Shown: positions 5,970 through 13,038 of the stretch, one piece after another
Layout of the letters: each line of letters begins with the position of its first letter
Numbering within the stretch: position 1 is the first letter of the stretch
Origin: Spirochaetales bacterium
Lineage (GTDB): Bacteria; Spirochaetota; Spirochaetia; Treponematales; UBA12059
NCBI GenBank assembly: GCA_016926955.1
Contig: JAFGNN010000042.1
Coordinates: 1-49,401 of the forward strand
Direction of reading: 5' to 3'
DNA length: 49,401 nt
Made by a program: the position numbers and the translations under genes
The notes under the pieces: model-generated
The model's input: only the letters and a program-made list of their open reading frames with translations
What the model was told of the DNA's origin: nothing
The model's database searches: none

Positions 5970-6869
5970 TCAGTCCCGATCTGCGAACAGGGCCGCCACG
6001 GCCGGATCGTGGAAGAGCTTCGCGTACTTGCGCGCGGACAAGCCCAGCTTGTCCTTCAGGTCCGGATCGGCGCCGTAGCGGAGCAGGAGTTCCGCGAGGC
6101 CGGGATCGTTTCGGCCGACGGCGATGACGAGAGCCGTCTGTCCGTCCTTGCTGCGCAGGTTCGGATCGGCGCCGCGCTTCAGAAGGTATTCGGCAAGATC
6201 GGCGTTTCCTGTATGCGCGGCGTCGCAGAGGGCCGTATAACCGCGGTCCTCCGCCTGCAGATCCACCGAGGCTCCCGAATCCACGAGCAGCTCGACCACG
6301 GAGCGATGCCGCGAGCGCGCCGCCAGGCAGAGGACGGGAACCCCGCTCCGGTCGCGCGAATCCGCGGGGAAGCCCGCGTCGAGGAAGAGCCCGACGGCGC
6401 GGACGTCGCCGTCGGAGGCGCAGGCCGCGAAGGCGTCCGCGTGGAAACTCACGCCCCGCTCGAGCAAGGCGCTCCGCGCGAGCCTTCTCCGCTCGCGCAC
6501 GAGGTATTCGGCCTTGCCCGCCTCGAGGTGCATCGCGAGCGCGTCGAGCTCATCGTGACAGCGCTCCTTCCCGATGAAGCCGGGCACGCGCGTCGCGGGA
6601 TCGGGCCGGTAGCAGGCCAGCGGGCGGCCTTTCCCCTGGGCCCATCCCGCTGCGAAGGCGAGCCACGCGGAATCGGCGCTGGCTTGTGTCAGGATCGCGA
6701 CAAAATGCGACGAATGGCCGAGCGCGGTCTCGATGCGTGCGGCGTTCTCATCCCGCCAGGCTGGACTCAGCTTGAGGCCGCGCCCTTCCAGGCCGACGTC
6801 CCTGAGCGCGCCCAGCACGGACACGAGTAAGTGGGCGTCTTCGGGTCCGACCAGCACCGCAACGTTCAA
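5970..6869 (-). CDS. Ankyrin-repeat protein with TIR-like N-terminal domain
   Basis: A roughly 299-residue protein. The first 110 residues (VAVLVGPEDAHLLVSVLGAL, then SSHFVAILTQASADSAWLAF) resemble a TIR/TIR-like flavodoxin fold: the SSHFVAILT strand plus the SAW helix correspond to the vlvllSxxyxxSxWc region. The Glu that TIR NADases carry after the Trp is absent, so enzymatic activity is unlikely. Residues from about 150 onward are four to five ankyrin repeats (GYTALCDAAHTGNADLAEYLLKRG type). I prefer the TTG at 6869 because AAGGA lies 6 bases upstream; another TTG at 6887 extends the frame by six residues without a ribosome site. The function is unknown. It is the downstream neighbour of the DnaE paralogue in the same orientation. 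Confidence 0.8.
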   Translation of the reverse strand: MNVAVLVGPEDAHLLVSVLGALRDVGLEGRGLKLSPAWRDENAARIETALGHSSHFVAILTQASADSAWLAFAAGWAQGKGRPLACYRPDPATRVPGFIGKERCHDELDALAMHLEAGKAEYLVRERRRLARSALLERGVSFHADAFAACASDGDVRAVGLFLDAGFPADSRDRSGVPVLCLAARSRHRSVVELLVDSGASVDLQAEDRGYTALCDAAHTGNADLAEYLLKRGADPNLRSKDGQTALVIAVGRNDPGLAELLLRYGADPDLKDKLGLSARKYAKLFHDPAVAALFADRD

Positions 6870-6980
6870 ACGCCGTTCCTTGAGCAAGCTGTTTGGCGAC
6901 GGGACCCGGCGCGAAGCCGCGTTCCGTACCGCGCGACGCTTCCAGCATAGTCCTTCCGGAAGCGGCGCGCGAGTGTACGC

Positions 6981-9900
6981 TCAGGCGCCGCGACGCGGAC
7001 GGTCCAGCGCGAAAGCATCCTCGACATGCACGGCGACGGCGCCGAGCTCCGCGCGCGGCTCGCCGACCACGAGGACGGCGTCGTGCTCTTCCAGCATCGG
7101 CACGAGGCGAGTCCACGCTTGAGGAAAAAGGACCGCGTCGAAAAGGCCGAAGGAGTCCTCGAAGGTGGCGAAGCACATGGCGTCGCGCCGCTTCGTGACC
7201 ACCTCCTTGCGCGCCGCCGCCACGCCGGCTATCGAAACCCTCCGCCCGAGCGAACCCGCGAGCGCGCGTGAATCCACGAGCGGCGGAAGGGAAAGCCGCG
7301 AGACCGCCGCGCGCGCGCGCGCGGCGAACAGTTCCGCCGGCGCGCTGGACGCCACGAAGCCGAGGGTCTCCGCCTCGGACGCCAGGGCGAGGCGCCGGCC
7401 GTGCTCCGCGAGCCCCGCGGGCGCCTCCCAGGTGGGGAAGAGCGCCTCGCCCGCGCCCTCGCCGAGCGAGCGCCAGCGATGCCAGGCCCAGAGCAGGTGG
7501 GCGCGCGCCGCCCTCGGTCCGCCCGGTTCGAGGGGCAGGCCGTCGAGGCAACCGGAAAGGATCCAGGCGCGCGCGGTCTCGCGGTCGGGCCGGGTCCGAT
7601 CGAAGAAGTCGATGGCTCCGCGGAAGGGTCCGCGCGCCGAGCGCGAGGCGACGACGGCCTCGGCGAAGGCGCGCGGCGCCGAGCGGATCTGCGCGAAGCC
7701 GATGCGGAGCGCCGCTTCCCCCCCGGCCCCGGGCTCGGGACGCTCGACAGTCCACAGCACCTCGCTCCGGTTCGCGTCGGGCGGCAGGAGCGACAGGCCC
7801 ATGCGCCTCGCCTCGCCCGCGTAAACCGAGGTGCCGTAGAAGCCGCCGCCGTTGTTGATGACCGACACGATGAACTCCGCCGGACGGTTCGCCTTGAGCC
7901 AGGCCAGGCGATACGACACGAGGGCATAGGATGCCGAGTGCGCCTTGCAAAACGAATAGCCGTCGAAACTGGCCATCATCTCCCAGAGCTGGCGCGCCTC
8001 GCGTTCGCGCGCACCGCGCGCGGCGCAGCCTGCCATGAAGCGCGTGCGGAAGCGCAGCAGGGACGGCGCCTTGCGCTTCTTGGTCAGGGCCTTGCGCAGC
8101 GCGTCCGCCTCGACCGCGTCGAAACCCGCGGCGGCCATTGCCACGCGCGAGACGTCCTCCTGGTAGACCATGACGCCGTGAGTCTCCGCGAGCGCCTCCT
8201 CGACGGCCGAGGACAGGCGGCGCCACTTCTTGCCGTGCAGGCGCGCGACGTACTCGTCCACGAAGCGGTTGGCCGCGGGCCGTATGATCGAGCTGGCAAC
8301 AACCAGGTGGCGGTAGTCGGCCGTCCCCATCTTGCGGAGCAGCCGCCGCGTGGCCGGACTTTCTATGTAGAAGACGCCCACCGTGTCGCCCCTCTCGACC
8401 AGGGCGCGGGCGGACGCCTCGTCCACCGGGTCGAAACGCTCCCACGAGAGCGGATAACGGGTGCCGTCGTGAGGGGCCGCGTCCGCCGCCCGCGCGCCCG
8501 TTCCGTTCCCTTCCCTTCCCGCACCCCCCGGACCCGAACCCCGGGCAGTCCCTCCCCGCCCCGCCCCGTCCGAGTCCGCGTCGCGGAGCGGACGTTCCGC
8601 CTCCCAGGCCCGGTTCGCGAGCTCCATGCCGTCGCGCAGCACCGCGAGCGAACGGTTCCCGAGCAGGTCTATCTTGACCAGGCCGGCGCGCTCCGCGCCG
8701 TCCTTTTCCCATGCGATGACCGGATAGCCGAGAGGCGACTCCTGCACGTGCACGTAATCTTCCAGGGGACCGCCCGTGATGATCATGCCGCCGGGGTGCG
8801 TTCCGATGTAGCGGGGAGTCCCGCGGACGAGGTCGGCGAGGCGGGCCAGCTCATCGGGCAACGCGCCGGGCCCCTTGAGCCGCGCCTCGCGCGAGAGGCG
8901 CGCGATCTCGTCCGTCGCGATACCGAGGGCCAGTGCCGGCTCGCGGATGGCGCTGCGTCCGGAGAAGCCGCAGTGGTCGGCCACCAGGGCCGAACGCCCG
9001 GGGTTCTCCGCCAGCACGGACCGTATCAGGGCTGGCCGCTCGTCCCAGGGAAAGTCCACGTCGATGTCCGGCGGATCCGTGCGTCCTTCGTTCAGGAAGC
9101 GCTCGAAAAAGAGGTCGTGCTCGAGCGGGTCGACGTGGGTGATGCCGAGCAGGTAGGAGACCAGGCTTGACGCGGCGCTGCCCCGACCGCACGTGCGCGG
9201 GCAGCGCGAGACGATGTCGCGCACCACGAGGAAGTAACCCGCGAAGCCCTTGTCGCCGATGATGCGAAGCTCGCGCCCGAGGCGTGCCACCAGGTCGGGG
9301 CGCGAAGCGCCCTCCGCTCCGTAGCGCCGGGGCACGCCCTCGCGGCACGCCGCGGCGAGGGCCGCGCGGGCCTCCGCCTCCGGTAGGCCGCGCCAGGCCG
9401 GGAAGACCGGCGTCTGCGAGAAGAACGAGCCGGCGGGCGCGGCCGCCTCCGCCAGAGCGCGGGCATTGTCGAGGGCCTCCGGAAAAGCCGAAAGACGTCC
9501 CGTCAGGCCTGCCGCGTCGACGAAGTCGCACTCGGACCCCGGCGCGGCCCTGCCGGTCGCGGCGCGCAGGGCGGCGAGGGTCTGCCGAGCCTCGATGGCC
9601 TCGAGCAGTTCGGCGCGTTCGCGGTCGTCCGGGTCGAAGAAACGGGCGTCGGAGCCCGCGAGCGGCGGCAGGCCGAGCTCCGATCCGAGCCGCGCCAGAG
9701 CCGCCTGCGGACGCCCGGCCTCCAGTAGCACGAAGGGCTGCCGGCCCGGTCCCCGGCCGCCGGCGCCGTCCGAGGCGGCTCGGGCGAGGGCGGCCAGGAC
9801 GCCCGGCTCCGACGAGGCCAGCGCCAGGCCCTCCCAGCCCTCCGAGGCCAGGTCGGCGACCGGGTCCCACGGCGCCGCTCCGAGCCTCGCGCGTCCGGCG

Positions 9901-10310
9901 GAACCCGTATCGGCGGCCCGAGCCTCGGCGCCACCGCGATCGGATCCGCCCTCGTCCTGATCGAAGGCCTCCGGCGGCAGGCGGAAGCGACGGAGGACCG
10001 TATCGACCGAGAGCGCCCGCGAAAGCAGGCGGTTGAGCCGGGAGAAGCCCCGTCGGTCAAGGGCGAGGGCGGCTACGGTCCTCCGGCCGGCCGGTCCGAG
10101 CCAGGCGGCGGCGAGCGGCTTGACGCCCGTGTCGGCGGCCGCGTCCACGAACTCGGGCAGGGCGTAAAGATTGTCCAGATCCGCCAGCGCGACGGCGCCG
10201 TAAGCGCCCGCGGCCGCGCGCGCGCAGAGGGCTGCCGGTTCGGCAGCGCCAGTCATCAACGAGAAGCGGGAGCGCGCGAAGAAGAGCGGAAACCCGGCGG
10301 CGTGGCTCAT
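6981..10310 (-). CDS. DNA polymerase III alpha subunit paralogue (DnaE2/ImuC-like)
   Basis: About 1109 residues. The catalytic core is intact: GRGSAASSLVSYLLGITHVDP, the metal-binding DID of PPDIDVDFPW (about residue 412), and the third Asp in GLVKIDLLGNRSL (about 546). PPDIDVDF and WEKDG resemble the DnaE2 branch more than replicative DnaE1. The N-terminal PHP domain is degenerate (FFARSRFSLMTG and ADLDNLYAL in place of HxHSxxSLLDG and TDH), so it cannot bind the usual metals. An OB fold ends the protein (MCFATFEDSFGLFDAVLFP). Two low-complexity Gly/Arg-rich insertions are seen (about 140-170 and 570-615). Start: the ATG at 10310 sits next to a promoter-like palindrome; the in-frame ATG at 10319 is inside it. 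No imuB or dinB is nearby. Confidence 0.88.
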   Translation of the reverse strand: MSHAAGFPLFFARSRFSLMTGAAEPAALCARAAAGAYGAVALADLDNLYALPEFVDAAADTGVKPLAAAWLGPAGRRTVAALALDRRGFSRLNRLLSRALSVDTVLRRFRLPPEAFDQDEGGSDRGGAEARAADTGSAGRARLGAAPWDPVADLASEGWEGLALASSEPGVLAALARAASDGAGGRGPGRQPFVLLEAGRPQAALARLGSELGLPPLAGSDARFFDPDDRERAELLEAIEARQTLAALRAATGRAAPGSECDFVDAAGLTGRLSAFPEALDNARALAEAAAPAGSFFSQTPVFPAWRGLPEAEARAALAAACREGVPRRYGAEGASRPDLVARLGRELRIIGDKGFAGYFLVVRDIVSRCPRTCGRGSAASSLVSYLLGITHVDPLEHDLFFERFLNEGRTDPPDIDVDFPWDERPALIRSVLAENPGRSALVADHCGFSGRSAIREPALALGIATDEIARLSREARLKGPGALPDELARLADLVRGTPRYIGTHPGGMIITGGPLEDYVHVQESPLGYPVIAWEKDGAERAGLVKIDLLGNRSLAVLRDGMELANRAWEAERPLRDADSDGAGRGGTARGSGPGGAGREGNGTGARAADAAPHDGTRYPLSWERFDPVDEASARALVERGDTVGVFYIESPATRRLLRKMGTADYRHLVVASSIIRPAANRFVDEYVARLHGKKWRRLSSAVEEALAETHGVMVYQEDVSRVAMAAAGFDAVEADALRKALTKKRKAPSLLRFRTRFMAGCAARGAREREARQLWEMMASFDGYSFCKAHSASYALVSYRLAWLKANRPAEFIVSVINNGGGFYGTSVYAGEARRMGLSLLPPDANRSEVLWTVERPEPGAGGEAALRIGFAQIRSAPRAFAEAVVASRSARGPFRGAIDFFDRTRPDRETARAWILSGCLDGLPLEPGGPRAARAHLLWAWHRWRSLGEGAGEALFPTWEAPAGLAEHGRRLALASEAETLGFVASSAPAELFAARARAAVSRLSLPPLVDSRALAGSLGRRVSIAGVAAARKEVVTKRRDAMCFATFEDSFGLFDAVLFPQAWTRLVPMLEEHDAVLVVGEPRAELGAVAVHVEDAFALDRPRRGA

Positions 10311-10330
10311 ACCATACATATGTATAGTAT
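10309..10330. promoter_or_regulatory. 22-bp operator-like palindrome at the dnaE-paralogue start
   Basis: A perfect 12-bp palindrome (ATACATATGTAT, 10314-10325) extends to a 22-bp inverted repeat with one mismatched pair. It overlaps the likely -10 (TATACA on the minus strand, 10325-10320) and the first ATG. A TTGAGG -35 lies 15 bp upstream. The core ACATATGT is shared with Gram-positive LexA boxes (GAACATATGTTC), but the regulator is not known. Confidence 0.6.
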
Positions 10331-10382: not shown

Positions 10383-10411
10383 TTGACATCTTTGGAGATA
10401 CTGGATATTAT
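10383..10411 (+). promoter_or_regulatory. Strong promoter with no protein gene behind it
   Basis: TTGACA (10383-10388), 17 bp and TATTAT (10406-10411) in an AT-rich stretch. The predicted transcription start is near 10418. It faces away from the DnaE paralogue and towards a terminator at 10507-10550. Confidence 0.75.
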
Positions 10412-10417
10412 AACTTT

Positions 10418-10552
10418 GTCGACGGAAAGACCGACCGCGTTGCGGCGGGCTCGAAGCTCGACGCCTCCTTTTCCGCTATGCCCGCGCCCTGAGCAAGCGT
10501 CGGGTCGAGACCGCCGGGTTCGCCTCCTTTCCCGGCGGTCTCAATTTTTTAA
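10418..10552 (+). ncRNA. Candidate small RNA with two anti-Shine-Dalgarno motifs
   Basis: A promoter and a perfect intrinsic terminator delimit a transcript of about 135 nt that contains no credible reading frame (the only ATG gives four codons). The 10-mer CGCCTCCTTT occurs twice (10462-10471 and 10521-10530). The second copy fills the loop of the terminator hairpin. The first lies in the loop of a possible 6-bp stem (10445-10450 with 10480-10485). CCTCCTTT equals the 3' end of 16S rRNA and would pair with AAAGGAGG ribosome sites, much as C-rich loops act in RsaE/RoxS-type sRNAs. It does not match SRP RNA, tmRNA, 6S RNA or RNase P motifs. Expression and targets are inferred. Confidence 0.6.
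10507..10550 (+). terminator. Intrinsic terminator of the small RNA
   Basis: A perfect 12-bp stem (10507-10518 with 10531-10542), a 12-nt loop carrying CGCCTCCTTT, then AATTTTTT. Only the plus orientation has the T-run. Confidence 0.88.
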
Positions 10553-10588: not shown

Positions 10589-11530
10589 TCAGCTGCCGGA
10601 ATTCCCTGAAAGCCCCACGAAACGCAGGGCGGACGGCAAGAGCTCCACGCGCAACTCCCTCGCGGCTGTCGCTATCGTTTCGCCGTCGGCGTGCACCGGC
10701 ATGGTCCCCTCGAGCGCCGTTATGGCGAAGCGGGAGCCGCGGGCGGTCCGCGTTCCGGGATCCTCCGCCTGCGTTCCGTCGATGAAGCGCAGAAACATCC
10801 TGAACAGGTGAACCCTGCCGCGCACCTGCACCGCGCAGAGGTCGAGGAGCCCGTCGCCCGGATCGGCGCCGGGAGCCATGCGGAACGAGCCCCCCATGCG
10901 CCGTCCGTTCATGATGGAAACCTGGATCGAACGCAGCTCCAATTCCCCGGACTCCCACGCCACCTTGACCGTCGGCGCCTTCGGGAAGGCCGCCATCCGC
11001 ACCAGGGCGCCCCAGAAGTATGCCATGGAGCCGTGCAGCATGGTCGCGCGCGCTGCCGTGAAACCCACCAGGGTGTCGAAGCCTATGCCGATCCCGTTGC
11101 CGAAGAAATGTCGCGAGGCGGGATTCGCCATATCCTCGACGATGCCGACGTCGAGCGGGGTGAAGCGCCGCCGCGCCAAAAGCTCCGCGAAAACCCGCGG
11201 ATCGTGCGGCGCCAGGGCGCCATGGGCGAAGTCGTTCCCCCGGCCGATGGGAAGGAGCCCGAGCGCGGGCCGGTCGTCGGCTCCGCTCCCGCTTTCCATC
11301 AGGCCGTTTATCACCTCGTTGGCCGTCCCGTCGCCGCCGGCCGCCACCACGACGTCGCGCAGCTCCGCCCGGGCGGCGGCCGCCAGCTCGCGGGCGTGAC
11401 CCGGGCCCGTCGTCACCGCCAGGTCCCAGTGCAGGCCGGCAGTCCTCATGCCCGCCAGCCAGGGCTCGATCCGGTCGCTCGCTGCCCCTTTCCCCGCCGT
11501 CGGGTTCAGAATGACCAGGTTCCTGTGCAC
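10589..11530 (-). CDS. Diacylglycerol kinase-family lipid kinase
   Basis: A 313-residue DAGK_cat/YegS-like protein that phosphorylates diacylglycerol or a related lipid with ATP. The NPTAGKG loop at the N-terminus (LVILNPTAGKG) and the nucleotide-binding AAGGDGTANEVINGL motif are clear, followed by LLPIGRGNDFA and the beta-sandwich domain (MNGRRMGGSFRMAPGADPGDGLLDL). Start is GTG 11530 with a GGGG-rich ribosome site, preceded by TTGACG-16 bp-CATAAT (11589-11562). Products of this family recycle lipid or make phosphatidate; the exact lipid is not readable. It converges with the candidate small RNA. Confidence 0.9.
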   Translation of the reverse strand: MHRNLVILNPTAGKGAASDRIEPWLAGMRTAGLHWDLAVTTGPGHARELAAAARAELRDVVVAAGGDGTANEVINGLMESGSGADDRPALGLLPIGRGNDFAHGALAPHDPRVFAELLARRRFTPLDVGIVEDMANPASRHFFGNGIGIGFDTLVGFTAARATMLHGSMAYFWGALVRMAAFPKAPTVKVAWESGELELRSIQVSIMNGRRMGGSFRMAPGADPGDGLLDLCAVQVRGRVHLFRMFLRFIDGTQAEDPGTRTARGSRFAITALEGTMPVHADGETIATAARELRVELLPSALRFVGLSGNSGS

Positions 11531-12871: not shown

Positions 12872-12967
12872 GGTTCAAGTCCTCTTCGCCGCTTATCGAA
12901 AAAGACAAAAGGCCCGGCCTTGCGGCCGAGCCTTTTGTCTTTTTCTGCGGCGAAGAGGACTTGAACC
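12872..12967. repeat. Palindromic element B: inverted copy of the tRNA-Leu 3' end around its terminator
   Basis: The 21 bp at 12872-12892 are the exact reverse complement of 12947-12967, which is the T-arm and acceptor end of the tRNA gene. Between the arms lies the terminator hairpin 12898-12945. The whole 96-bp block is thus nearly one large palindrome. Element A repeats the design with degenerate sequence. Confidence 0.75.
12898..12945 (-). terminator. Terminator downstream of tRNA-Leu
   Basis: AAAGACAAAAGGC pairs with GCCTTTTGTCTTT around a CGGCC/GGCCG hairpin. On the minus strand the stem ends in TTTTGTCTTTTTC. It is symmetrical and may work in both directions. Confidence 0.75.
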
Positions 12968-13027
12968 TCCATGCCTCTCGGCACTAGCACCTCAAGCTAG
13001 CGTGTCTGCCAATTTCACCATCGCCGC
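12946..13027 (-). tRNA. tRNA-Leu (anticodon GAG)
   Basis: An 82-nt class II tRNA. The 7-bp acceptor stem GCGGCGA/TCGCCGC, D-arm region ATTGGCAGAC, anticodon stem-loop CTAGC-TTGAGGT-GCTAG with anticodon GAG (reads CUU/CUC), long variable arm TGCCGAGAGGCA, and T-loop TTCAAGT are all readable. The discriminator base is A, as expected for leucine. CCA is not encoded. A strong promoter (13067-13039) and terminator (12945-12898) make it a single-gene unit. Confidence 0.95.
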
Positions 13028-13038
13028 AAGACAGGAGT

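Follow-up and report, generated by a model that had tools for sequence, protein, structure and literature searches.

The RNA predicted here, a transcript of ~135 nt encoded on the plus strand of a spirochaetal genome, probably acts in trans by blocking strong Shine-Dalgarno (SD) sequences with the loop of its own terminator, without Hfq, and would represent one branch of a spirochaetal set of RNAs that share this loop. The unit lies in a 49,401-nucleotide stretch of DNA, called the window hereafter, from a 3.38-Mb spirochaete MAG. Its promoter, terminator stem and loop are conserved at one locus across three families, and the loop is identical to the anti-SD tail of 16S rRNA.

Anatomy of the unit and its neighbourhood

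Direct reading of the window identified a promoter, TTGACA-17-TATTAT, at 10383-10411 on the plus strand, consisting of the −35 element TTGACA (10383-10388), a 17-bp spacer with a conserved GGAG element (10394-10397), and the −10 element TATTAT (10406-10411); the promoter also carries TGGATAT. The promoter scored 11 of 12 in a promoter scan, and only 2 promoter-like sites occurred in 3 kb, compared with 0.1 expected from shuffles. With its 5′ end inferred 7 nt after the −10 element, the predicted sRNA spans 10418-10552 and ends at an intrinsic terminator (10507-10552, plus strand), in which GAGACCGCCGGG (10507-10518) pairs with CCCGGCGGTCTC (10531-10542) at 12 of 12 positions to enclose a 12-nt loop, TTCGCCTCCTTT, followed by AATTTTTT with a U-run at 10545-10550. 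The terminator scanner, whose loop limit was 8, missed this hairpin for the sole reason that its loop is 12 nt long. The anti-SD motif CGCCTCCTTT occurs twice on the plus strand, at 10462-10471 (copy 1) and within the terminator loop at 10521-10530 (copy 2), and its core 9-mer GCCTCCTTT was found at no further position on either strand of the window. The preliminary description had given the promoter, both motif copies, the perfect 12-bp terminator and the ~135-nt extent with correct coordinates throughout.

The unit folds with −58.5 kcal/mol (z −2.0), and in the predicted ensemble the terminator-loop motif is unpaired with a probability of 0.85-1.0. The values for copy 1, which is partly paired, are mixed (0.03-0.92), with CUCC mainly open and GC and UUU mainly paired. 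That the unit encodes a small protein is hardly credible: a mechanical 142-aa frame with a TTG start does cross it, but this frame begins within the promoter, runs on through the terminator and has no conserved counterpart in relatives, and the sole in-frame ATG read within the unit yields 4 residues with no SD.

The sRNA is flanked by a divergent dnaE2 gene (error-prone DNA polymerase III alpha; 6981-10307, minus strand), which is 86-87% identical in the nearest named relatives ('Spirochaetes bacterium' MAGs), and by a convergent diacylglycerol kinase family gene (10589-11530, minus strand), whose adjacency to the sRNA is not conserved outside the genus. After dnaE2 follows an ankyrin-repeat gene (5970-6887, minus strand), whose product has an N-terminal domain that is weakly TIR-like (PF13676, E 0.084). 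Outside the sRNA and upstream of dnaE2, a palindrome around CATACATATGTATAG (10312-10329) resembles one (ACTATACAWWTGTATAGT) upstream of dnaE2 in G000, G001, G002, G007, G011, G065 and G041 and was not seen in relatives without dnaE2; given this restriction to dnaE2-bearing relatives, the palindrome probably serves as the clade's LexA box, a LexA-type operator of the divergent dnaE2.

Conservation of the unit across three families

The unit had been described as an orphan, a label that its positional orthologues in three families and its paralogues in the window genome contradict. Its conservation greatly exceeds what chance would give, both in close relatives and in the recurrence of promoter and hairpin in 17 genomes described below. 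In two sister species it is 90-92% identical over 236 nt, the whole promoter and hairpin included, and copy 1 of the motif is identical in G001 and G002. A DNA similarity search across the order gave mostly noise beyond the genus and was informative only for G007 and G053. A promoter pattern of 31 bits, TTGACN{6,7}RGAGNNNYTDGATATW, written from distant examples with the use of 9 genomes, matched 19 of 244 genomes of the order, once in each, while the reversed pattern matched none of these 244. An intrinsic-terminator hairpin with a CCTCC loop follows the promoter in 17 of these 19 genomes, including 6 of the 8 new matches outside the genus, none of which had been used in writing the pattern. 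We term units with this promoter and a subsequent CCTCC-loop terminator class A. The window unit and those of 16 other genomes fit this definition, and covariance and pattern searches together placed class A in three families, with a single copy in each of 17 genomes, a near-unique promoter consensus of TTGAC-N6/7-RGAG-N3-YTDGATATW and a distance from the −35 element to the hairpin of usually 107-126 nt (222 nt in G011).

The two promoter matches lacking a hairpin are in G013, which looks like a chance match, and in G015. The latter (L247; G015:C14:105239-105265) is the only non-sRNA match that looks real; an Rrf2-like regulator frame follows closely downstream of it, which may point to the regulator that acts on class A promoters. 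All class A promoters (10383-10411 in the window; L240-L258) carry RGAG in the spacer at a fixed distance before GATATWAT, an arrangement suggestive of an operator or of a site for an activator.

In the class A terminator stem, 98.5% of cells are paired and 8 of 10 pairs show two-sided changes, with a covariation score of 0.771 compared with 0.196 for shuffled alignments and 0 of 500 shuffles attaining the observed score, in an alignment that was fitted to the model and includes four weak extra hits. The loop keeps CCUCCU while the stem covaries. The interiors of the RNAs vary between genera in both sequence and length, which argues against a coding function. Conservation in relatives thus falls on promoter, stem and loop instead of on a reading frame, in keeping with the core of the earlier interpretation as a free-standing sRNA, for which a conserved reading frame in place of loops and stems had been named as the counter-evidence.

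The same description had featured two CCTCCTTT motifs and suggested a covariance search for both loops in relatives. Covariance and pattern searches recovered the terminator loop in 17 genomes, but a pair of motifs is not the conserved feature, and the description gave the motif outside the terminator too much weight: this other C-rich motif is present in the window genus and in most members of family f4, where CCCCTCCC or CCTCCC stands in a corresponding position, and absent from the members of genus g5 and from G007. The constant part is the terminator-loop motif, and the other motif (copy 1 in the window) is lineage-specific. The class A RNAs of family f4 (L240-L246; alignment A9, columns 4-28) also share a 5′ hairpin whose loop, AGGACGA, is invariant and whose stem covaries, GAG-AGGACGA-CTC (GAGAGGACGACTC), and the GGA in this loop suggests a protein site.

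The class A RNA is divergent from dnaE2 in 9 of the 17 genomes, in two families, and in seven other genomes, where dnaE2 is missing, from an ankyrin-repeat gene that is orthologous to, and 45-50% identical with, the one that follows dnaE2 in the window. Synteny with dnaE2, the ankyrin-repeat gene or both therefore extends to 16 of the 17 genomes, the window included and G023 being the exception, and these 16 RNAs share one locus whether dnaE2 is present or absent. By contrast, the genes downstream differ (kinase, polysaccharide deacetylase, azlC, cyclic-nucleotide-binding regulator), so that the class A hairpin is not the terminator or leader of a neighbour. This bears on the alternative that the hairpin does no more than terminate the transcription of a leader or of one of the two flanking genes (dnaE2 or the diacylglycerol kinase gene), with an incidental CCTCC loop, which we regard as quite unlikely. 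Some terminators after ordinary genes of the window genome do have C-rich loops (C92, C80, C47), and in genus g5 azlC lies downstream on the same strand as the sRNA, where an attenuator is conceivable. However, in the window dnaE2 is divergent, the kinase gene is convergent and the U-run is on the sRNA strand only, and across lineages promoter, hairpin and loop persist while the downstream genes change, with the loop kept as the stem changes.

Units with the same loop under other promoters

Intergenic terminators under other promoters carry the class A loop as well, and the window genome has at least three loop-bearing units. One of these, at C69, belongs to class B, which has a GTAACC promoter with a GTTRTTT-like −10 element and is also found in families f1, f4, f5 and f3; the third unit is at C52. 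Class D, with the promoter TTGCATA...GTATATTTAT, occurs in several f1 genera and in G056. In G372, two hairpins follow in succession, each with CACCTCCTTT or ACCTCCTTT in its loop (z −6.2). Many class B RNAs contain a GGACGAC-like element (GACGAC or GCGACG) that resembles the 5′ loop of family f4. In several genera (L062, minus strand near 1142; L005, L064, L069), a class B RNA with two C-rich motifs adjoins a short gene beginning MAQVSKNARTSSSTQRFYCPCGGEVK, which likely encodes a small zinc-ribbon protein.

Because a plain terminator-loop pattern gave a high background, we built a covariance model of stem, loop and U-run (R1) and a control with the same stems and a permuted C/T loop (R2). R1 matched 200 of 244 genomes at E up to 0.05, many of the weaker matches being ordinary terminators. 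The best control score was 40 bits compared with 55 for R1, and at 41 bits or more R1 had ~55 matches and R2 had 0. The training hairpins of R1 had initially been picked by their CCTCCTT motif, so that part of its preference for the loop stems from the training set and the R2 control lacks full independence. This bias is reduced but not removed by R2, the promoter test and synteny, of which the latter two supply the independent evidence for class A. A control alignment with a reversed loop was dropped, as reversed CCTCCTT still contains CCTCC, and some hairpins of family f5 (G039:C12 and similar, 46 nt) were not counted among the anti-SD members, as the control model outscores R1 on them. Strong R1 matches with the loop extend to further orders of this class and to two families that do not belong to it, and related loops occur across the phylum. 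The window RNA belongs to a separate spirochaetal set of predicted sRNAs that share the loop and differ in their promoters.

A candidate mechanism and its relation to known anti-SD RNAs

Since the 3′ end of the window genome's own 16S rRNA was not recovered (one match turned out not to be 16S), the tail was read from relatives, where it is CACCTCCTTT. The 16S genes of these relatives contain GGCTGGATCACCTCCTTT, so the terminator loop is a copy of the ribosomal anti-SD tail, and the equivalence of motif and 16S tail asserted in the preliminary description is borne out. A search for Hfq gave no match over the cut-off in the genomes of 39 relatives, with control genomes positive. The computed energy of the CCUCCUUU:AAAGGAGG pairing is −10.4 kcal/mol.

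For transcription, pairing to mRNA, repression and targets, we infer the following course. A dedicated promoter of the sigma-70 type would drive a transcript of ~135 nt ending at the intrinsic terminator, whose loop, UUCGCCUCCUUU, would expose a sequence identical to the 16S anti-SD tail and pair with strong SD sequences (AAAGGAGG, AAGGAGG). Such pairing would block 30S binding and thereby repress, and probably destabilise, the mRNA. In the window genus, copy 1 in its weaker helix would serve as an additional, redundant seed, and Hfq would not be needed.

A seed of 7-8 nt that equals the SD complement has in itself little target specificity. In 449 kb of the window genome (282 crude gene calls), an SD of at least 5 nt precedes 47% of genes, compared with 20% of random positions; complementarity to the loop over at least 7 nt is found at 6.4% of genes, compared with 1.4% of random positions. 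As few genes have an SD of at least 7 nt, a requirement for 7-8 pairs would direct the loop towards a small group of strong-SD genes, making selective action on them plausible. Members of this group in the sample are, among others, flgE, fapA, three flaA genes and three genes for solute-binding proteins. Signal peptides were not significantly enriched among the strong-SD genes (8 of 18 versus 75 of 264, p = 0.18), and we therefore claim no target theme.

Another reading, which we consider unlikely, takes the RNA for a decoy whose partner is the ribosome or a protein, for example an RNA-binding protein such as CsrA, instead of individual mRNAs. CsrA uses sites of the type GGA in a loop, and the invariant AGGACGA loop of family f4 on its covarying stem, the similar element in many class B members and the match of the terminator-loop motif to the 16S tail are all consistent with a decoy. 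However, only some class A members have the f4 element; what all of them share is the anti-SD loop, which in its orientation is not a CsrA site. Decoy and mRNA pairing are compatible with each other.

Taking these observations together, we propose that uncatalogued spirochaetal RNAs, of which the window RNA is one, probably switch off the translation of mRNAs with strong ribosome-binding sites. More tentatively, and as a possibility still open to considerable doubt, Spirochaetota might possess an Hfq-free layer of translational control, in which several sRNAs per genome, each with its own promoter and all with a copy of the 16S anti-SD in the terminator loop, jointly act as stress-selectable switches on a few strong-SD mRNAs (here those of flagellar sheath and hook genes and of solute-binding proteins), with the class of the window linked to an SOS-type dnaE2-ankyrin locus by its position. 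If phylum-wide, the set would mean that a design known from rhizobia (NfeR1, CcsR) and Firmicutes (LhrC, csRNAs) had evolved independently here, and it would point to concrete candidate regulators acting after transcription in bacteria in which Hfq was not found. Because promoter and loop are conserved, any cultured relative would be suitable for testing it, and the classes could found new Rfam families.

An Rfam scan of the window at gathering thresholds returned tRNA only (tRNA-Leu(GAG) at 12945-13028 is its sole tRNA) and no family for the sRNA, in line with the earlier statement that it fits no known class; a spirochaetal anti-SD sRNA was found neither in Rfam nor in the literature searched. 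In a relaxed scan, alpha-r14 (RF02344) was the second match, at 15.0 bits and E = 1 against a gathering score of 58.8 bits, and this sub-threshold alignment sets both C-rich motifs on two displayed anti-SD motifs of alpha-r14, which is a lead on mechanism, not on membership. In alphaproteobacteria, NfeR1/alpha-r14 and cuckoo/CcsR carry anti-SD motifs in loops including the terminator loop, keep the motif while stems vary and occur in copies such as CcsR1-4 (PMC10746234, PMC10253847); alpha-r14 has an ultraconserved CCUCCUCCC in each of three hairpins, and NfeR1, independently of Hfq, silences ntrB via redundant anti-SD loops (PMC10746234). The window RNA shares with NfeR1 a probable independence of Hfq and with the group as a whole a length of about 120-135 nt, the anti-SD motif in the terminator loop, variable stems and the presence of several copies per genome, a likeness in the way of working and not in homology. 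By contrast, it carries the CCUCCUUU motif (CGCCUCCUUU twice) and no CCUCCUCCC, spirochaetal RNAs usually have one or two sites where alpha-r14 has three, and the low score, the different phylum, the promoter of its own and the dnaE2/ankyrin synteny further set it apart.

The terminator loop and loop A of LhrC bind the lapB SD (PMC4132741), and LhrC of Listeria and other sRNAs with UCCC loops (RsaE, FsrA) resemble the window RNA in their redundant C/U-rich motifs in loop, linker and terminator loop. Their core, however, is CUCCC(N)UUUU and they are Gram-positive, whereas the loop core of the window RNA is CCUCCUU, and the latter matched no such Rfam family at gathering or relaxed thresholds. 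The streptococcal csRNAs of the CiaR regulon, found by a search for promoters and terminators, likewise form a multi-copy set complementary to the SD (PMC3091779), but their anti-SD and anti-AUG sequences sit in the linker between two hairpins, and the CiaR repeat of their promoters, TTTAAG-N5-TTTAAG, is absent from the window promoter as read directly. By analogy with these systems, the window RNA most likely works like alpha-r14, LhrC and the csRNAs while being a member of none of them.
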